Assembly (NCBI GenBank): GCA_022567875.1
Contig: JADFGB010000002.1
Coordinates: forward strand, 1 to 18,008
DNA: 18,008 nucleotides
Direction of reading: 5' to 3'
DNA from: Bacteroidota bacterium
Lineage (GTDB): Bacteria > Bacteroidota > Ignavibacteria > Ignavibacteriales > Ignavibacteriaceae
The notes beneath the pieces are model-generated. The model was not told the DNA's origin. It saw only the letters and a program-made list of their open reading frames with translations, and made no database searches. Position 1 is the first letter of the stretch, and each line of letters starts with the position of its first letter. Made by a program: the position numbers and the translations under genes. Shown here piece by piece: positions 9,527-17,786 of this stretch.

Positions 9527-9985
9527 ATGATTGAAGATAAAATAAAAGAACTTGGATTTGAATTACCTGAACCCGCTAAGCCAATGGCCGCATATTTACC
9601 GTCGGTGCAAACCGGCAATCTTATTTTTACGGCAGGACAAATACCAATTGTAAATGGAGAATTAAAATATAAAGGGAAAGTAGGATTTATTTTAACTCTT
9701 GAAGAAGCACAAAAGGCAGCACAAATTTGTGTGTTAAATTGTTTGGGTGTCATCAAAAATATTATAGGTTCGTTAGAGAATATTGAACAGATTGTAAAAT
9801 TAACAGTATTTGTAAACAGCGCTGATAATTTTACCTTACAGCATCTTGTTGCAAACGGTGCCTCAGAATTACTTGGAGAAATATTTGGTGATAGAGGAAA
9901 ACACGCAAGAAGTGCAGTAGGCGTTAATGAATTACCTGGGGATTCTGCAGTAGAAATAGAAATGATTTGCAGAGTAAAAGATTAG
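9527..9985 (+). CDS. RidA family (YjgF/YER057c/UK114) enamine/imine deaminase-like protein
   Basis: 152 residues. Members hydrolyse reactive enamine/imine intermediates such as 2-aminoacrylate released by pyridoxal-phosphate enzymes. Key features are TGNLIFTAGQIP (29-40), VKLTVFVNSADNF (90-102), and the signature ARSAVGVNELPGDSAVEIE, in which Arg128 corresponds to the substrate-binding arginine of RidA. At about 150 residues it belongs to the longer Rid subgroup rather than the 128-residue archetype, so its exact substrate is not certain. The start is ATG 9527, decided by AGGAG at 9517-9521; a TTG at 9506 would add seven residues and lacks a ribosome site. It converges on trpA with overlapping stop codons. 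TrpB is a known source of aminoacrylate, so the position beside trpBA may be meaningful. Confidence 0.88.
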   Translation: MIEDKIKELGFELPEPAKPMAAYLPSVQTGNLIFTAGQIPIVNGELKYKGKVGFILTLEEAQKAAQICVLNCLGVIKNIIGSLENIEQIVKLTVFVNSADNFTLQHLVANGASELLGEIFGDRGKHARSAVGVNELPGDSAVEIEMICRVKD

Positions 9986-10773
9986 TTAATATTGAAAAGC
10001 GAATTTTTTAATTCTCTGACTAAATTTAATGTTTTCTGATAGGGTGATTTTTCTTTAAATAATGATTTGATTATAGCACTGCCTACAATAATACCATCGC
10101 AAAAAGGTAAAACTTTTTTTGCATCGTTCGGACTTGAGATACCAAAACCAACTAAAGTTTTATTTTTTGTTATTGTGTTTTTTATAGTTTCCAAGTAATT
10201 TTCATTTATTTCTTTATCAGAATTTATCCCTGTTATTCCGTTGATGCTTACACAATAAACAAAACCCGAAGATTCTCCATCAATCATTTTTATTCTGTTC
10301 ACAGGTGTTGTAGGAGCAACAAGAGAAATAATATCCAAATTATTGAAATGATTTTTATAAAAAACTTTCTGTTCGTTAACCGGGATGTCCGGAATAATTA
10401 AACCGTTAACCCCGGATTTAAATGAATCTTTTGCAAATCTTTCTATTCCATAAGCCAATATTGGGTTTGCATAGCCCATAAGGATAATTGGTTTTGTAGA
10501 AAATTTTCTTATTTCTTGTACATAATCAAAAGTTAAAGAAATATTTATTCCTTTCTTTAATGCAAGTTGGGAAGATTTTTGAATTACACTTCCATCAGCA
10601 ATAGGGTCACTGAAAGGGATTCCTATTTCTAGTATATCCGCGCCGGCATTAAAGATATTTAAAGCCAATTCCGTAAAATTTATTTTATTAGGAAATCCGC
10701 TTGTTAAAAAAACAGAAAGGACTTTATCTCCTTTATCGTTTATAGCTTTTATTTTATTTTTTATTATTGACAT
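9982..10773 (-). CDS. trpA: Tryptophan synthase alpha subunit
   Basis: Cleaves indole-3-glycerol phosphate to indole and glyceraldehyde 3-phosphate, passing indole to TrpB through the alpha2beta2 tunnel. The 263 residues have the catalytic pair Glu49 and Asp60 (DILEIGIPFSDPIADG), the same numbers as in the enteric enzyme, and the phosphate-binding GFGISSP and VGSAI segments. The start is the ATG at 10773, one base after the trpB stop; an upstream ATG at 10815 would add 14 residues inside trpB and can be dismissed. It is the last gene of the operon. Its TAA overlaps the TAG of the convergent ridA gene, so there is no intergenic terminator. Confidence 0.96.
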   Translation of the reverse strand: MSIIKNKIKAINDKGDKVLSVFLTSGFPNKINFTELALNIFNAGADILEIGIPFSDPIADGSVIQKSSQLALKKGINISLTFDYVQEIRKFSTKPIILMGYANPILAYGIERFAKDSFKSGVNGLIIPDIPVNEQKVFYKNHFNNLDIISLVAPTTPVNRIKMIDGESSGFVYCVSINGITGINSDKEINENYLETIKNTITKNKTLVGFGISSPNDAKKVLPFCDGIIVGSAIIKSLFKEKSPYQKTLNLVRELKNSLFNIN

Positions 10774-10774
10774 T

Positions 10775-11971
10775 TTATACGAATAGATTTTTATAAGTTT
10801 CCATATCTTTATCACCCCTGCCGCTTAAGTTGACGATTATGATTTCATCATTTTTTGTCTTCGGCATTATATATTTGAGATAAGCAATTGCGTGCGCGCT
10901 TTCAAGTGCAGGTATAATACCTTCAGCTTTTGAAAGCATTTTTGCTGCCTTAAGTGCTTCTTCATCCGTAACAGAAAAGTATGAAACTATTTTTTCATCT
11001 TTTAAATAACTATGCTCTGGTCCAACACCCGGATAATCAAGACCGGCAGATATAGAATAAACTTCTTCGACTTGTCCGAATTCATTTTGCAAAAGGTAGG
11101 AACGCATCCCGTGAAAAATACCGTCTTTACCCAGAGTAAGGGTCGCACAATTTTCTTTAAATTCTAGCCCCTTGCCTGCAGCTTCAACACCGATAAGTTC
11201 AACATCATCTTCAATAAAAGGATAAAAAATACCAATGGCGTTACTTCCTCCACCAACGCAGGCAATAATTTTATCGGGATTTTTACCCTCTAATTTATTT
11301 ATCTGCTCTTTAGTTTCTTTCCCAATAATTGATTGAAAATCTCGTACCATCATCGGGTAAGGATGGGGGCCAACAACAGAACCGATTATATAATGAGTGT
11401 TTTCAATATTACTTACCCAATCTCTTATTGCTTCGTTGGCAGCATCTTTTAATGTTTTTGTCCCTGATGTAACTTCAATTATTTCTGCACCCAACATTTT
11501 CATTCTTAATACATTAGGCATTTGTCTTTTAATGTCTTCTTCTCCCATAAATATTGAACAGCGCAAACTGAATTTAGCACAAACAGTTGCTACTGCAACA
11601 CCGTGCTGACCGGCACCGGTCTCAGCAATTATTCTGTCTTTACCCATTCCCTTTGCTACAAGTATTTGTCCGATTGCATTATTGATTTTATGAGCACCGG
11701 TGTGACAAAGATCTTCTCTTTTTAAGTATATTTTTCCGCCATTGTAATGTTTAGTTAAATTTGAAGCAAATGTAAGCGGTGTTGGTCTTCCTGAATATTC
11801 TGTGTTTAATTTTTCAAGTTCTTCTAAAAACGAAATATCGGTTTTAAGTTTATTGTAGTATTCTTCTAATTCCATTAACGGTGTTATTAAAGTTTCGGGG
11901 ACAAACTTACCGCCGTATTTACCAAAGTGTCCTTTAACATCAGGGAGATTATAATTATTTAACACATTCAT
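10775..11971 (-). CDS. trpB: Tryptophan synthase beta subunit
   Basis: Pyridoxal-phosphate enzyme that condenses indole with serine to give tryptophan. The 398 residues match the TrpB1 type that pairs with TrpA. The N-terminus has the conserved [12 protein letters not shown]. The cofactor lysine is Lys95 in [15 protein letters not shown], the catalytic glutamate is in [11 protein letters not shown], and the phosphate-binding loop is VGGGSNAIG. The ATG at 11971 is eight bases after aroF; no strong ribosome site is visible (AAGAAT), so coupling to aroF translation is likely. TrpA follows after one base, consistent with equal production of the two subunits. Confidence 0.98.
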
Positions 11972-11979
11972 TACAATTC

Positions 11980-12987
11980 TTAATTTTTAATTATAGGGGT
12001 TAATTCTTTTATTTTAGTATATAATTTTTTAAACCTTTCAAGTGTTAAAGATTGAGCACCGTCTGAAAGTGCTTTATCAGGATGATTATGAACTTCCACA
12101 ATAAGCCCGTCAGCACCACAGGCAATTGCTGCTAAGCTCATAGGTGCAACCTTATCCCAATAACCTGTTCCGTGCGAAGGGTCAACAATTATTGGAAGAT
12201 GAGACAATTTTTTTATTACCGGTACGGAATTTAAATCCAGCGTGTTGCGGGTTGATGTTTCAAAAGTTCTGATTCCCCTTTCGCAAAGTATTACATTATA
12301 ATTACCCTGTGCTAAAATGTATTCCGCACTCATAAGTAAATCTTCAACTGTAGCTGCCATTCCTCTTTTAAGTAAAATTGGTTTGTTAATTTTCCCAACT
12401 TCCTCCAACAATGAATAATTTTGCATGTTCCTTGCACCTATTTGTAAAACATCTGCAACTTCAGAAATAATTGGGATTGTATGTGTATCTTTTACTTCTG
12501 TAACAATAGACATTCCAAACTCTTTTTTAACTTCATCCAAATACTGCAATCCTTTTTCTTTTAATCCTTGAAAAGAATAAGGACTCGTTCTGGGTTTATA
12601 TGCACCTGCTCTAAATAAATTAATACCCATTTCCTTTAATCTTCCTGCAATATCAAATATTTGATCTTTGCTTTCAACGGAACATGGCCCTGCAATTATT
12701 GATATGTTATTACCTCCTATTTTGCTGTCACCAATCTTTATCACTGAATCTTCTTCTTTCATTTCTCGGCTTACAAGCTTGTATTTTTTAGTTACTCTTA
12801 TTACTTCTTCAACGGACTTCATTTTTCTAATTTCCTCTTCGTGTATTAAATTTGTGGGACCAGTTATTCCAATTGCAAGTTTTCTCTCTCCTGGAATTTC
12901 GTGGGGTGTACAATCATATTCTATAATTTTATTTTTGATATTATCAATATCATTTCTTTGAGTATTTAAGTTCATAATTATCAGCAT
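11980..12987 (-). CDS. aroF: 3-deoxy-7-phosphoheptulonate (DAHP) synthase, type I-beta with N-terminal regulatory domain
   Basis: Joins phosphoenolpyruvate and erythrose 4-phosphate, the first committed step of aromatic amino acid synthesis. The 335 residues carry a ferredoxin-like regulatory domain at about 1-72 (ending YKLVSRE) and the TIM-barrel catalytic domain from about 95. Visible active-site parts are AGPCSVES with metal ligand Cys102, [13 protein letters not shown] (129-141), [28 protein letters not shown] and DGLIVEVH. In the Thermotoga relative the N-terminal domain mediates feedback inhibition by tyrosine and phenylalanine; which effector acts here cannot be read from sequence. 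ATG 12987 is supported by AGGAG six bases upstream and by alignment of the N-terminus; the ATG overlaps the trpF stop (ATGCTGA). Its position between trpF and trpB ties precursor supply to tryptophan demand. Confidence 0.95.
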
Positions 12988-13601
12988 TTTTCGCTCCTAA
13001 GTGATTTCAAAAGTGAGAAAAAATAGCTCACCTTATTTTTGTCTTTTTTACCCGGACATTCTTCCAATGAAGAAGAAATATCAATAGCTTTGGGATTTAT
13101 ATTATTAATTACAAATTTAATATTGTTTGCAGATATTCCGCCCGATAGTATAATATCATTTTTAATCTTATCCGGTATTTTCATCCAATCAAAACTTTTT
13201 CCTGTTCCACCATAATAATTTGATGAAAAAGAATCGAATAAAAATCTACAATTATTGTATTCACTTAATATCAAGAAATTAAATGTATCAGTAATTCTAA
13301 AACTTTTAATCACAGGTAACAATATTTTATTAACAATTTCCGGTGATTCTTCCCCGTGTAATTGTACGGTGTTTAACTTAATATTTGCTGCCATTTCATT
13401 AATCAATTCGGGTGTTTCATTTACAAACACTCCAACTTTCATAGTAAAAGGTGAAAGCTCACGAATGATTTTAACTGCTTTATCAGGCTCAACATATCTT
13501 TTGCTTTTTTTGTAAAATATAAAACCCAAAGCGTTCGCGCCGTATGCTTCACACATAAGCGCATCTTCCAGATTTGTTATTCCGCAAACTTTAACTTTCA
13601 A
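12981..13601 (-). CDS. trpF: Phosphoribosylanthranilate isomerase
   Basis: Amadori rearrangement of phosphoribosylanthranilate to CdRP, third step after chorismate. The 206 residues begin with the diagnostic KVKVCGITN, with catalytic base Cys6. The general acid is Asp123 in FLFDSFS, followed by GGTGKSFDW; SGGISANNI and the phosphate-binding end DISSSLEECPGKKD complete the barrel. The start codon is TTG at 13601: no ATG or GTG lies upstream before an in-frame stop at 13614-13616, and the first downstream Met is residue 16, beyond the active-site Cys. It overlaps trpC by 11 bases and aroF by seven, so translation is probably coupled. It is a separate protein, not fused to TrpC. Confidence 0.95.
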   Translation of the reverse strand: MKVKVCGITNLEDALMCEAYGANALGFIFYKKSKRYVEPDKAVKIIRELSPFTMKVGVFVNETPELINEMAANIKLNTVQLHGEESPEIVNKILLPVIKSFRITDTFNFLILSEYNNCRFLFDSFSSNYYGGTGKSFDWMKIPDKIKNDIILSGGISANNIKFVINNINPKAIDISSSLEECPGKKDKNKVSYFFSLLKSLRSEKC

Positions 13602-14385
13602 TTTGGCACCATTTCATTAAATCCATTAAACTTTTATTTAAGTTATTGGAAGACATTAAAAAATCACCGACTAAAACAGCATTTACATTTGTTCTTTTTA
13701 TAATTGATAAATCTTCATTTTTTCTAATCCCGCTTTCAGATACTATTAATACATCTTCAGGTAACAATTGCGAGATAGCAACAGTTGTATTTAAGTCCAC
13801 AGAAAAATCCGTGAGGTTTCGATTATTTATTCCGACAAGACTGCTTAAACTAAAATCAATTTTATTGATTTGATTTTCTGAGTGTAATTCTAACAAAACC
13901 TCTAAATCAATTTCATTTGCTGAACAAATTAATTCATTGATTTGAGCTTTTGAGAGAGCTTCACAAATAAGAAGAATTACATCCGCACCAAATGCCTTTG
14001 ATTGATAAACCTGAAAAACATCGGTTATAAAATCTTTTCTAAGAAGAGGAAGTTTTTTAAATTTTGCAATCTCTTTTAACATATTTATATTACCGCCGAA
14101 AAACACTTCATCTGTTAAAATAGAAACACAGGCAATCTTTGAGTTGAAATATGTTTCAATTATATTTTTATAATCGAATTTTTTATTAATTACTCCTTTA
14201 GATGGACTTTTCTTTTTTAACTCAGCTATTATTGAGATATCTTTTGTGTTCTTTATATTATCAATTAAATTTAAGTTTTCAGAGTTAAATAATTCCATTG
14301 ATTCAAATGAATTGAGAGAAAAATTATTCTTTAAGATTCTAATTTCTTCTTTTTTTTGATCGAGTATTTTATTTAATATGCTCAT
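13591..14385 (-). CDS. trpC: Indole-3-glycerol phosphate synthase
   Basis: Decarboxylating ring closure of CdRP to indole-3-glycerol phosphate. The 264 residues show the family's active site: Glu55 and Lys57 in IIAELKKKSPSKGVI, general acid Lys117 in LRKDFITDVFQVYQ, then AFGADVILLI, VGINNRNLTDFSVDL and SESGIRKNEDL. The ATG at 14385 lies two bases after the trpD stop. No clear ribosome site is visible (TAGATAAAA precedes), suggesting reinitiation after trpD. The protein is stand-alone, unlike the TrpC-TrpF fusion of enterics, and looks complete. Confidence 0.97.
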   Translation of the reverse strand: MSILNKILDQKKEEIRILKNNFSLNSFESMELFNSENLNLIDNIKNTKDISIIAELKKKSPSKGVINKKFDYKNIIETYFNSKIACVSILTDEVFFGGNINMLKEIAKFKKLPLLRKDFITDVFQVYQSKAFGADVILLICEALSKAQINELICSANEIDLEVLLELHSENQINKIDFSLSSLVGINNRNLTDFSVDLNTTVAISQLLPEDVLIVSESGIRKNEDLSIIKRTNVNAVLVGDFLMSSNNLNKSLMDLMKWCQIES

Positions 14386-14387
14386 TT

Positions 14388-15410
14388 TTATCTATTTGTA
14401 CTACAGAATTTTATTAATTCATCTAATTTATTTTTTGCAGAGCCAGTAGTTACCGATTTTTCAGCTGCTTCCTTGCACTGAGTAATATTATCAGAATATT
14501 TTGCACAATATAAAGCTAAAGCAGCATTAGCAGTTACAGTAGTAAAACAGCCGTTTGTGCTAGTACCGTTAAAAATATCTTTAATAATATTTGCGTTTGT
14601 CTCTGCTGTATCACCTTTTAATTCGCTTATATCTACATTATCATAACCAAAAGTTTCATTAGTAATCTGATAATTTTTAATTGTTGAATTTCTGTTGTAT
14701 TCAAAAATTTCGGTCGTTCCATTAAGTAAAATTTCATCATATTTATTATCGCAGCAGAGAAAACATACTCTTTCAAAATTCAAATGGATAGATGCTTGCG
14801 CCATTAATTTTGCTGCATCGTTGCTGAACGTACCAATCATTTGCTTAATTACTCCAGCGGGATTTGTCAAAGGTCCCAGCATATTAAATATTGTTCTAAT
14901 TGCCAATTCTTTTCTTACCTGTGCGGCGTTCTTCATTGCTGGATGATATTGCGGTGCAAACAAAAATGTTATACCAATTTCATCTAAAGCTTTTTCAGAA
15001 ATCTCTTTGGGTAAAGTTATATTTACTCCAAGTTCTTTTAGAACATCAGCACTTCCACTTTTACTTGAAATTGATCTGTTACCATGCTTTGCCACTTTTA
15101 TTCCTGTACCTGCAACAACAAATGCTACAGCTGTGGAAATATTAAATGTACCGGAATTATCACCACCGGTACCACAAACATCAATTGCATCATTCCCATT
15201 TAAATTAAATTCTAAGCATCTTTCTTTCATGACTTTTGCAAATCCTGCTAACTCTTCAGAAGTAACTCCTTTTAATCTCATAGAAGTTAGTATGCCTGCT
15301 AATAATGAATTGTTAACATTTCCGAGCATTATTTCTTCCATCAAATCAGATGATTGACTCAGTGTTAGGTCTTCTTTATCAAGTAATTTTTCAAAAATCT
15401 GATTTATCAT
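14388..15410 (-). CDS. trpD: Anthranilate phosphoribosyltransferase
   Basis: Transfers phosphoribose from PRPP to anthranilate. The 340 residues match the stand-alone TrpD length, with the PRPP loop CGTGGDNSGTFNISTA at 79-94 and KHGNRSISSKSGSADVLKELG from 108 onward, plus the anthranilate-side segment FAPQYHPAMKNAAQVRKELA. ATG 15410 overlaps the trpG stop in the ATGA arrangement, which decides the start; a TTG at 15422 would add four residues and has no ribosome site. GGAG precedes the ATG by only two bases. The gene is not fused to trpG, in contrast to enterics. Confidence 0.97.
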   Translation of the reverse strand: MINQIFEKLLDKEDLTLSQSSDLMEEIMLGNVNNSLLAGILTSMRLKGVTSEELAGFAKVMKERCLEFNLNGNDAIDVCGTGGDNSGTFNISTAVAFVVAGTGIKVAKHGNRSISSKSGSADVLKELGVNITLPKEISEKALDEIGITFLFAPQYHPAMKNAAQVRKELAIRTIFNMLGPLTNPAGVIKQMIGTFSNDAAKLMAQASIHLNFERVCFLCCDNKYDEILLNGTTEIFEYNRNSTIKNYQITNETFGYDNVDISELKGDTAETNANIIKDIFNGTSTNGCFTTVTANAALALYCAKYSDNITQCKEAAEKSVTTGSAKNKLDELIKFCSTNR

Positions 15411-15973
15411 AACTCCAACCAATTTTTTATTATTTTATTTCCTTCGGTTTTCAATATTGATTCCGGATGGAATTGGATGCCTTCTATTGGCAAAAATTTA
15501 TGTCGCAATCCCATAATTGTACCGTCTTCTGTTTCGGAGGATATTTCCAGTTCTGCAGGAAGAGATTTTTTTTCAATAATAAGTGAATGATATCGCGTTG
15601 CTTCAAAATTCGGGGAGACATCTTTAAATATTGTTTTGTTATCGTGTTTAATTTTTGAAGTTTTACCGTGCATTATGTTTTTAGCTTTAATGATTTTTCC
15701 ACCAAATGAATAACCGATTGCTTGGTGACCAAGGCATACTCCAAGTATTGGAATTTTATCGGAAAATCTTTTTATAGTAGAGAGCGTAACTTTAGAGTTT
15801 TCAGGTCTTCCGGGTCCGGGAGAAATTAATATTTTATCGGGAGATATTTTTTGAATTTCATCAGTTGTTATTTCATCATTTCTTTTTACAATTAGTTCGC
15901 AATTATAAATTCCCAGTATTTGAACTAGGTTGTATGTAAATGAATCATAATTGTCAATTACTAATACTTTCAT
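15407..15973 (-). CDS. trpG: Anthranilate synthase component II (glutamine amidotransferase)
   Basis: Supplies ammonia from glutamine to TrpE. The 188 residues form a class I glutamine amidotransferase domain: IDNYDSFTYNLVQ at the N-terminus, ISPGPGRPE (50-58), nucleophile Cys80 in GVCLGHQ, and GIQFHPES with the catalytic His and Glu near the C-terminus. ATG 15973 has a GAGG site six bases upstream and is preferred over the TTG one codon earlier. The start overlaps the last 20 bases of trpE. A pabA-type role in folate synthesis is possible in organisms with a single shared subunit, but the operon context points to tryptophan. Confidence 0.96.
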   Translation of the reverse strand: MKVLVIDNYDSFTYNLVQILGIYNCELIVKRNDEITTDEIQKISPDKILISPGPGRPENSKVTLSTIKRFSDKIPILGVCLGHQAIGYSFGGKIIKAKNIMHGKTSKIKHDNKTIFKDVSPNFEATRYHSLIIEKKSLPAELEISSETEDGTIMGLRHKFLPIEGIQFHPESILKTEGNKIIKNWLEL

Positions 15974-17429
15974 CAATTACCTCTGCAAATATTAATGCTT
16001 TTTTTAATACAGCTGATTTATTATAAATTTCTTTCAATTCCAGTTCTGGCTTACTATCGTAAACAATACCTGCACCTGCCTGCCAAAAAATTTTGTTTTT
16101 TACTGAATAAAGTGTTCTTATGGCAATACACATATCAAGGTTTCCTGAAAAATCTAGATAACCAATTGCGCCGGCATAAACACCTCTTGGTATATTCTCA
16201 TAATTATTTATTAGTTCAATTGCTTTTAGTTTTGGAGCGCCAGTAACTGTTCCTGCAGGGAAACAGGATTTTAAAGCATCAACTGATGATTTATTATTTA
16301 AAAGTTGTCCTTCCACTTTTGAAACAATATGCATTACGTGAGAATATCTTTGAATTATTTTATCTTGAACAACATTTACAGAATTGAACTGACATACTTT
16401 TCCAAGATCGTTACGCCCCAAATCGACCAGCATAGTGTGTTCTGCAAGTTCTTTTGGGTCGTTTAATAATTCATTTTCCAATTCTGAATCTCTGTATTCA
16501 TTGTCTCCTCTTTTTCTTGTTCCTGCAATTGGTAAAACTTGGGCTTTACCGTCTATTACTTTGACCAAGTCTTCCGGCGAAGTTCCGGTTATTGTAAAAT
16601 TATTTTCAAATTCTAAATAATACATATACGGTGAAGGGTTGATGATTCTTAATGCACGGTAAACATTAAAAGGGTCTCCATTGAAAGATGCAGAGAATCT
16701 TTCCGATATAACAATTTGATAAACATCCCCGTCTTCAATTCTTTCTTTGCTTTTATTAACCCTTGAATAAAACTCTGAGGCGTCTATCTTATCTTTATCG
16801 AAATTAACAACGGAAAAATCAGACTTATAATTAATTTGTTTCTTTAATAAGTCTTTAATTTTTTTAATTTTTTTCTTAGCATTTTGATATTCTAATTTAT
16901 AATCCGAATTTTTGTCTATCAGTACGTTTGAAATTAAAATTAATTGATGTTTTAAATGATCGAATGCAACAACAGTTTGATACAAACCGAATATAGAATC
17001 ATATTCAGTTTCGGTAATAGGTGAAAGTTTTATAGAATTTTCTATCAGAGAAATATTTTCATATCCTAAATATCCAACATAACCCCCGGTAAAAACGGGC
17101 AGTTCTTTTAATGTTGGTTGTTTGTGTTTCTTTGCAATTTCTTCCAATAAATCAAAAATATTTCCTTTAATGGTTTCTAAATTGTCACCTGTTTTAATTG
17201 AAATTGTATTACCTTTGTTTGAAATAGTTGTTACGGGATTAACCCCGATAAAAGAATATCTTGCTATGCTGTTTTCACCTTCTACAGATTCAAGTAAAAA
17301 ACTTAGTTGACCGATTTGCCTAAGTTTTATATAAGCAAGAACCGGTGTTAGCAAATCCGCAGTGATAATCTCATAAACGGGTATCAAATTATAAGATTTT
17401 GTTAATTTTTTAAATTGTTCAAAATTCAT
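15954..17429 (-). CDS. trpE: Anthranilate synthase component I
   Basis: Converts chorismate to anthranilate using ammonia from TrpG; the regulated entry step of the branch. The 491 residues carry the tryptophan-binding LLES motif at 45-48 (SFLLESVEG), so feedback inhibition by tryptophan is likely. The chorismate-binding domain shows ITGTSPEDLVKV, LPIAGTRKRG, FPAGTVTGAPKLKAIELI and AGAGIVYDSKPELE. The start is ATG 17429: the alternative TTG at 17471 lies inside the terminator hairpin and would give residues unrelated to the family. No strong ribosome site precedes it (GGTAA at most). Sixteen bases upstream sits the attenuator terminator, and a Trp-rich leader peptide precedes that, so transcription into trpE is probably set by tryptophanyl-tRNA charging. 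Confidence 0.97.
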   Translation of the reverse strand: MNFEQFKKLTKSYNLIPVYEIITADLLTPVLAYIKLRQIGQLSFLLESVEGENSIARYSFIGVNPVTTISNKGNTISIKTGDNLETIKGNIFDLLEEIAKKHKQPTLKELPVFTGGYVGYLGYENISLIENSIKLSPITETEYDSIFGLYQTVVAFDHLKHQLILISNVLIDKNSDYKLEYQNAKKKIKKIKDLLKKQINYKSDFSVVNFDKDKIDASEFYSRVNKSKERIEDGDVYQIVISERFSASFNGDPFNVYRALRIINPSPYMYYLEFENNFTITGTSPEDLVKVIDGKAQVLPIAGTRKRGDNEYRDSELENELLNDPKELAEHTMLVDLGRNDLGKVCQFNSVNVVQDKIIQRYSHVMHIVSKVEGQLLNNKSSVDALKSCFPAGTVTGAPKLKAIELINNYENIPRGVYAGAIGYLDFSGNLDMCIAIRTLYSVKNKIFWQAGAGIVYDSKPELELKEIYNKSAVLKKALIFAEVIDESISN

Positions 17430-17445
17430 TTTATTACCATTAAAC

Positions 17446-17477
17446 AAAAAACCCCTTACAGTAAACTGCAAGGGGTT
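17446..17477 (-). terminator. trp attenuator terminator (3:4 hairpin)
   Basis: On the minus strand AACCCCTTGCAG (17477-17466) pairs with CTGTAAGGGGTT (17461-17450) across a TTTA loop: 12 pairs with one G-T wobble and a CCCC/GGGG core. The right arm runs straight into a six-T tract (17451-17446). It is a textbook intrinsic terminator placed between the leader peptide stop and the trpE ATG, so it must be bypassed for the operon to be expressed. Confidence 0.92.
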
Positions 17478-17501
17478 AATATTAAAAGTTGTTTTTTACA
17501 G
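17466..17501 (-). promoter_or_regulatory. Candidate antiterminator (2:3) pairing in the trp leader
   Basis: CTGTAA at 17501-17496, two bases after the leader peptide stop, can pair over six bases (one G-T wobble) with TTGCAG at 17471-17466, the inner part of the terminator's left arm. CTGTAA is the same six bases that begin the terminator's right arm, so the two are direct competitors. A ribosome that reaches the leader stop would cover this segment and let the terminator form. One stalled at the Trp codons, about 30 bases back, would leave it free. The pairing was read by eye; no folding energy was computed. Confidence 0.55.
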
Positions 17502-17502
17502 G

Positions 17503-17595
17503 TTACTGAGTCATATTATAATTATTTACAAACCACCACCAAGATTCTTGGTTAAATGAAAAATAATTGTAATATGTCCCAGTATTTACTTTCAT
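17503..17595 (-). CDS. trpL: trp operon leader peptide
   Basis: A 30-codon open frame, ATG at 17595 to TAA at 17503. Codons 19-21 are three consecutive TGG (17541-17533), the only Trp codons in it. The peptide is also rich in Tyr (residues 8, 9, 11, 26) and Phe (12, 14, 22), so 10 of 30 residues are aromatic. It is followed by an alternative-pairing segment and an intrinsic terminator before trpE, the arrangement known from enteric trp attenuation, where ribosome stalling at Trp codons under low charged tRNA-Trp prevents termination. The ribosome site is weak (a purine stretch, TTAAGATT, before the ATG). It is probably a regulatory device with no function for the peptide itself. The reading as trpL rests on context and the triple Trp run, not on sequence similarity. 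Confidence 0.87.
   Translation of the reverse strand: MKVNTGTYYNYFSFNQESWWWFVNNYNMTQ
17515..17573 (-). promoter_or_regulatory. Candidate leader pause hairpin (1:2) over the Trp codons
   Basis: Within the leader peptide, ATTACAATTATT (17573-17562) can pair with AATAATTATAAT (17526-17515), 11 of 12 positions. Nested inside, ACCAAG (17552-17547) pairs perfectly with CTTGGT (17543-17538) across a three-base AAT loop, taking in the first Trp codon. Such a structure would match the pause hairpin that synchronises polymerase with the leading ribosome. The outer arms are all A-T apart from the mismatch, so they may be fortuitous. Confidence 0.45.
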
Positions 17596-17608
17596 AATCT
17601 TAACCGTA

Positions 17609-17637
17609 AATGTAAGAGCATTTTTTTTTATAATCAA
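17609..17637 (-). promoter_or_regulatory. Candidate trp operon promoter
   Basis: TTGATT (17637-17632) and TACATT (17614-17609) are 17 bases apart on the minus strand, with a nine-A run in the spacer. The start would fall near 17602, giving a very short untranslated leader of about seven bases before trpL. An alternative -10, TATAAA at 17632-17627, would give about 25 bases but has no visible -35. Choice between them cannot be made from sequence. Confidence 0.35.
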
Positions 17638-17698
17638 TACAATAAATAAAAAATTAATAAATAGTAAATAATTTAATTTAAAAATCGATACATAAAAG

Positions 17699-17713
17699 AA
17701 TAGGGAACCTATT
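17699..17713. repeat. Short inverted repeat in the divergent trpL / secreted-protein gap
   Basis: AATAGG at 17699-17704 and CCTATT at 17708-17713 are perfect arms around GAA. It lies just upstream of the plus-strand promoter candidate and about 60 bases upstream of the trp promoter candidate. It could be an operator half-site pair or chance. Otherwise the 176-base gap (17596-17771) is plain AT-rich DNA. Confidence 0.25.
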
Positions 17714-17719
17714 GATATC

Positions 17720-17749
17720 TTGAATGTATATAAACATTATAGCTATATT
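17720..17749 (+). promoter_or_regulatory. Candidate promoter for the secreted protein at the right edge
   Basis: TTGAAT at 17720-17725 and TATATT at 17744-17749 are 18 bases apart. The latter extends to TATATTTG (17744-17751), which also fits the Bacteroidetes TAnnTTTG element. The start would lie near 17756, about 30 bases before ATG 17787. Confidence 0.4.
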
Positions 17750-17786
17750 TGAAGTGAAGATAGATGAGAAAATGATGATACATAAT

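Follow-up and report, generated by a model that had tools for sequence, protein, structure and literature searches.

A predicted ribosome-mediated tryptophan attenuator upstream of the trp operon of an Ignavibacteria genome and its conservation among relatives

Classical attenuation by leader peptides is ascribed chiefly to Actinobacteria and Proteobacteria in PMC4833913, which also describes short leader genes near structural genes in Bacteroidetes, among others, and argues for reinitiation. For Actinobacteria, Seliverstov et al. (2005, PMC1262725) report control of tryptophan genes at the RNA level, by classical attenuation in some cases and with some attenuator components missing in many. 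Naville and Gautheret (2010, PMC2965389) describe a His leader in front of hisS paralogues in bacilli, before which these authors knew of no shown leader-peptide system outside Proteobacteria and Actinobacteria. To call trp attenuation classically enteric, as the original prediction for the DNA studied here did, is therefore too narrow, other Proteobacteria and Actinobacteria being known from the same papers (PMC2965389, PMC1262725).

Here we analyse a stretch of 18,008 nucleotides, in the following called the window, for which a complete ribosome-mediated trp attenuator in a Bacteroidetes/Chlorobi-type host had been proposed. The host type agrees with the seven close named relatives of its trpE (58-91% identity), which are Ignavibacteria or 'Bacteroidetes' metagenome assemblies, and the attenuator itself is supported by conservation and co-variation. 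We computed its anatomy, its conservation and the co-variation of its alternative helices, and modelled its folding in three ribosome states. The attenuator is real, conserved and ordinary in principle; the lineage is unusual and there are differences in detail. Vitreschak et al. are said to have predicted attenuators in some Bacteroidetes/Chlorobi operons in 2004.

The features of the locus are collected in Table 1. Downstream of the leader follow trpE, trpG, trpD, trpC, trpF, a DAHP synthase gene, trpB and trpA, an operon content which agrees with Trp as the amino acid sensed. With the DAHP synthase gene placed between trpF and trpB, a Trp attenuator would govern the first shikimate step too. 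The longest trpE frame begins at TTG 17471, within the terminator, so that a gene caller could set the trpE start there and mask the attenuator.

Table 1. Features of the trp locus (window positions) and of the His leader locus of the same genome (L129 positions).
Feature	Position	Strand	Remarks
Bacteroidota-type promoter-like site	17637-17607	(-)	TTG 17637-17635, 20 nt, TACATTTA 17614-17607; ends 11 nt before leader ATG
Leader peptide ORF (predicted)	17595-17503	(-)	30 codons; ATG 17595-17593, stop TAA 17505-17503; peptide MKVNTGTYYNYFSFNQESWWWFVNNYNMTQ
Segment 1 (protector 5' arm)	17584-17561	(-)	Leader codons 4-12; MFE fold; co-evolves with segment 2
Three tandem Trp codons, TGG TGG TGG (sensor)	17541-17533	(-)	Trp clusters also in relatives
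Protector 3' arm, overlapping segment 2	17527-17504	(-)	MFE fold
Segment 2 (antiterminator strand), CAGTAACCTG	17508-17499	(-)	CAG-TAA-CCTG; straddles leader stop
Intrinsic terminator	17477-17446	(-)	12-bp stem 17477-17450, U run to 17446; -18.7 kcal/mol; covariation
Antiterminator partner, CAGTTTACTG	17468-17459	(-)	Terminator 5' arm apex, loop, start of 3' arm
trpE, anthranilate synthase component I	15954-17429	(-)	TIGR00564, 512.8 bits, slightly below cut-off 517.7
trpG	15407-15976	(-)	TIGR00566; ORF as listed, start codon may be later
trpD	14388-15422	(-)	TIGR01245; ORF as listed
trpC	13591-14385	(-)	NF001377
trpF	12981-13601	(-)	NF002298
DAHP synthase (first shikimate step), inside trp operon	11980-12987	(-)	NF006421
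trpB	10775-11971	(-)	TIGR00263
trpA	9982-10815	(-)	TIGR00262; ORF as listed
His leader ORF, MNLLQLHHHHHHTCSQARW	L129:1099-1158 (contig C34)	(+)	Followed by terminator-like hairpin and T run
hisG	L129:1267-2124		After the His leader; hisD next

Ahead of the trp operon lies a short predicted leader ORF in which Trp codons are clustered; both the 30 codons and the TGG TGG TGG run that had been proposed were located. The sensor codons are the single occurrence of TGGTGGTGG in the window (chance expectation 0.02). Among the 11 copies of TGGTGGTGG in the assembly (1.85 Mb), the leader copy alone encodes WWW within an ORF that begins with ATG and does not exceed 60 aa. When the upstream 260 nt were dinucleotide-shuffled, WWW appeared in an ATG ORF of 8-60 aa in 4/20000 cases, and the looser W-x0-3-W ORF in 522/20000. 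A chance origin of the leader was rejected on the TGGTGGTGG counts, on these upstream shuffles and on the detector rate in shuffled loci given below.

Bacteroidota ribosomes largely disregard Shine-Dalgarno sequences, and none of the motifs GGAGG, AGGAG and GAGG was found in the 18 nt 5' of the leader ATG in any of the 38 distinct sequences from the window's order (0/38). A promoter-like site, called with a consensus that we take to be that of Bacteroidota (TTG-N17-23-TAnnTT(T/C)(G/A), ending 6-13 nt 5' of the leader ATG), is present in 27 of these 38 sequences as compared to 2.3% of shuffles. The strict TTTG version is present in 21/38 as compared to 0.6% of shuffles; the window, with TTTA, is outside those 21. 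Transcription may thus start just 5' of the leader ATG and give a near-leaderless transcript.

Between the leader and the first structural gene lies an intrinsic terminator, as had been proposed: a strong 12-bp stem followed by a T run whose end (17446) is separated from the trpE ATG (17429) by 16 bases. The fold of 17433-17640 has a z of -4.8, none of 200 shuffles being equally stable, and the two ends of the leader pair with each other in the MFE fold. An alternative pairing segment, placed by the original prediction two bases beyond the leader stop, does exist; its location had to be corrected, as segment 2 straddles the stop codon. Segment 1, the 5' arm of the protector, is an element that the original description did not contain. 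Across the order, the protector 1:2 helix has at least 6 pairs in 37/38 sequences; here and in the segment 1 spacing, the Trp cluster is wrongly placed in rows L015 and L031 (L and f denote our locus and family labels), which affects these two rows. In the order, segment 2 pairs on average 5.7 bases with the terminator 5' arm, 3.1 with the loop and 6.2 with the 3' arm.

Segment 1 of the window lies 20-53 nt upstream of the Trp codons. In the window's own family f1 (19 rows, counting the named relatives), the closest base of segment 1 precedes the first Trp codon by 11-28 nt in 17/19; the exceptions are L020, where segment 1 adjoins the Trp codons, and the L015 row with its wrongly placed Trp cluster. 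In families f2 and f3 the nearest segment 1 base is at most 4 nt from the Trp codons in 15/19. With segment 1 placed 5' of the sensor codons in f1, a ribosome stalled at these codons might not block its re-pairing.

To survey conservation, trpE loci were searched for ORFs that start with ATG, contain a Trp codon cluster and precede a terminator at least as stable as -14 kcal/mol. This detector fired in 91/123 real loci, among them L089 and L100, which were judged weak or spurious and not scored positive, as compared to 34/2460 shuffles. At the order level, counting the named records L003-L009 that were grouped there by trpE identity (58-91%), a Trp-cluster leader and a terminator are found in 42/43 loci (38 distinct). 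Both the Trp run and the terminator, on whose conservation the original prediction was made to depend, are kept in these 42 loci. The sole exception, L014, keeps the ORF and the terminator and has just two scattered Trp codons. In the rest of the class, 11/29 loci are positive (L047-L055, L067, L076), 29 of 34 loci having been read and five of f10 left out. Outside the class, 36/51 loci are positive in a sample that is not random: of 144 matches, the 51 read comprise the 11 best-scoring, all of f37, and 40 picked by hand, one to five per family. L002 (a paralogue) as well as L010 and L011 (distant trpE) were left out of all counts, and the genomes with no trpE match at the cut-off (104/159 class genomes, 11/41 near relatives) stand outside them. 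The duplicates L012, L013, L016 and L042 were excluded from the states model, the promoter and Shine-Dalgarno survey and the segment 1 spacing. In L018 the gap between terminator and trpE is about 226 nt, as compared to roughly 14-45 nt in most order-level relatives.

Several families were negative at every locus read (f10 7/7, f18 4/4, f19 4/4, f26 3/3, f29 2/2, f31 4/4, f44 3/3); further negative loci were found in f5 (3/4 read), f33 (1/1), f48 (1/1, L089) and f42 (1/5). In most loci of f10, f18, f19 and f26, an open frame of at least 70 codons lies on the trpE strand and ends no more than about 140 nt 5' of trpE. With these candidate upstream frames, trpE is probably not the first gene of the operon in those families. 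In f29, f31 and f44 a putative open frame upstream of trpE lies on the opposite strand.

Two families of the positive loci have leaders of their own kind. Those of f37 (L056-L066) are short, with WWP, and WWWP in 10/11, and segment 2 pairs chiefly with the terminator 5' arm (mean 6.9; loop 1.3; 3' arm 2.6); by these computed pairings the f37 antiterminator is more classical than that of the window's order. Those of f35 (L106, L107, L111, L125, L126) are very short, 15-18 codons with WWW, and their segment 2, situated close to the stop, engages the 5' arm and the loop (means 4.8 and 4.8; 3' arm 2.2). These families also bear on the question of which amino acid is sensed. The leader might respond to aromatic amino acids generally, Tyr and Phe codons (TYYNYFSF) stalling the ribosome too; Y and F codons do precede the Trp run in the window leader, and a DAHP synthase inside the operon would suit such a sensor. 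However, the f37 and f35 leaders keep the Trp run without a TYY motif, and the TYY codons of the window sit in segment 1, where their conservation can be ascribed to the helix with segment 2. We regard general aromatic sensing as unlikely and continue with a sensor of Trp.

The alternative helices were further examined for co-evolution among the 38 order-level sequences. Pairing of segment 2 with the terminator apex of the same sequence has -16.81 kcal/mol as compared to -12.44 kcal/mol for cross pairings, the own partner beating the row median in 37/38 and 0/20000 permutations being as good. For segment 1 and segment 2 the own and cross values are -14.79 and -9.66 (32/38; 0/20000 permutations). 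In nine control pairings, made with reversed, complemented or unrelated regions, the difference between own and cross was at most 1.66. The reversed segment 1 against segment 2 reached 3/20000 permutations in this test, which ignores relatedness; some controls gave low permutation counts, so that these counts cannot be taken as strict probabilities. With that reservation, segment 2 and terminator gave 95/20000 in the other members of the class (n=11), 19/20000 in f37 (n=11) and 0/20000 in the other members of the phylum (n=25), and segment 1 and segment 2 gave 6/20000, 0/20000 and 0/20000, respectively.

Column by column, co-variation was followed in alignment A1, which took 28 of the 31 sequences that had passed an 80% filter (L020, L039 and L040 omitted). 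The terminator columns have 98.5% paired cells and two-sided changes at 7/12 pairs. The antiterminator columns have 80.1% paired cells as compared to 32-42% in slid versions; two-sided changes occur at 6/10 pairs, a count that was equalled in 77/500 shuffles and by the +1 slide. Taken together, the changes in both sets of columns indicate that the first bases of the terminator 3' arm co-vary with two partners.

A pairing constraint on the leader also touches a further function that was considered. Besides attenuation, the released leader peptide could act in trans, as described for peTrpL of Sinorhizobium, a leader peptide with trans action after release, in PMC7298713. In close relatives, the peptide is also conserved outside the Trp run (GTYY, NMTQ), which would fit such a function; these two stretches are, however, the two arms of the 1:2 helix, and the leaders of other families have little in common but Trp. 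We consider a trans-acting peptide very unlikely, and read the conserved stretches as parts of the attenuator RNA.

Equilibrium folding alone mostly ends in the terminator, and we therefore modelled nascent RNA of growing length with the ribosome as a mask, either stalled at the Trp codons, absent or at the stop, with E. coli trpL as control. For the window, the model gives up to 11.8 antiterminator pairs with the ribosome stalled, 4.8 without ribosome and 0.7 with the ribosome at the stop. The antiterminator is maximal in the stalled state in 37/38 sequences of the order, 11/11 others of the class, 11/11 of f37 and 23/25 others of the phylum, the lead of the stalled state being less than 1 pair in 7, 1, 1 and 1 of those cases, respectively; L045, L090 and L093 do not fit the pattern. 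With the ribosome at the stop, the antiterminator has fewer than 4 pairs in 30/38 order-level sequences and at least 4 in 8/38. The model thus favours the geometry that had been put forward, stalling at the Trp codons against finishing at the stop: the antiterminator would be exclusive with the terminator and released when a ribosome sits on the Trp codons, and the position of the stop, straddled by segment 2, would let a terminating ribosome cover that segment.

The model also points to weaknesses of the switch. In the absence of a ribosome, 30/38 order-level sequences still attain at least 4 transient antiterminator pairs, so that the state without translation would be only weakly 'off' and the protector is leaky in the model. 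With a mask of the ribosome footprint only, the window retains 4.8 antiterminator pairs instead of 11.8, and E. coli trpL 3.8 instead of 8.5. Once complete, the terminator prevails at equilibrium even with the ribosome stalled in 81/85 sequences, and likewise in the E. coli control; antitermination must then be kinetic, with read-through dependent on timing.

Rfam covariance models gave no family at gathering score in the window, so that such elements may stay unannotated. Lenient matches such as PyrG_leader (27.5 bits, threshold 65) and the trpB motif (23.9 bits, threshold 59) fell far short. Trp_leader, which we take to be the Rfam family of the E. coli trpL attenuator, was absent even among the lenient matches, and so was T-box (17300-17750). 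In many Firmicutes, a T-box controls the terminator in front of trpE. The present terminator might be switched by another sensor (T-box, Trp-binding protein or Rho), the leader peptide being incidental. By eye, and using what we take to be the T-box motif, the distant trpE loci L010 and L011 (one record titled Mesobacillus, the other Pseudomonas) have T-box-like sequence and no leader peptide. Such a sensor is highly improbable for the window, given the Rfam results for the window and the T-box result for 17300-17750, and also given that the Trp-codon cluster is conserved while the remaining sequence changes.

We conclude, from conservation, co-variation and the modelled states, that the element very probably attenuates transcription of the trp operon by a ribosome-mediated mechanism that senses Trp-tRNA. 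RNA polymerase would initiate just 5' of the leader ATG and a ribosome would load without a Shine-Dalgarno sequence. When Trp-tRNA is ample, the ribosome would reach the stop and cover segment 2, the terminator would fold and transcription would end 5' of trpE. When Trp-tRNA is scarce, the ribosome would stall at the Trp codons and leave segment 2 free to pair with the emerging terminator apex, and the polymerase would read on. If the leader is not translated, segment 1 would hold segment 2 and the terminator would form. The transcription start, leader translation, ribosome-polymerase coupling and a response to tryptophan are the inferred parts of this scheme. A MNLLQLHHHHHHTCSQARW leader ahead of hisG and hisD is likely a second leader-peptide attenuator of the same genome, as judged from its sequence.

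To our knowledge, transcription-translation coupling has been little tested in Bacteroidota. A leader-peptide attenuator needs a ribosome that keeps pace with the polymerase, and these leaders would therefore probe coupling directly. The outcome of this study is a co-variation-supported set of Trp attenuators in Bacteroidota. We tentatively raise the possibility, less likely than not, that Trp attenuation is an ancient trait of the whole phylum and has a form peculiar to it, with a near-leaderless ORF lacking a Shine-Dalgarno sequence and an antiterminator that invades the terminator apex from both arms. If so, a ribosome could enter the leader as soon as its 5' end emerges, tight coordination of ribosome and polymerase at leaders would be implied, and a ribosome stalled 3' of segment 1 would keep it off segment 2.

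Compared with the leader elements of Actinobacteria in PMC1262725, the present one belongs to another phylum and all four segments are present. With the bacilli His leader of PMC2965389, it has in common leader-peptide attenuation outside Proteobacteria, whereas the bacilli case concerns histidine and Firmicutes. It resembles E. coli trpL in the leader ORF with tandem Trp codons, the alternative pairings, the terminator before trpE and the order of states in the folding model. In contrast to E. coli trpL, the leader has 30 instead of 14 codons and is without a Shine-Dalgarno-like motif, with a promoter-like site 11 nt before the ATG. The Trp codons lie in the loop of the 1:2 hairpin, as opposed to the start of its 5' arm in the E. 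coli fold. Finally, the E. coli antiterminator pairs before the terminator 3' arm emerges, whereas that of the window would mature only once the loop and the initial three 3' arm bases are out, and the antiterminator of the order differs from that of E. coli in reaching both arms of the terminator apex.
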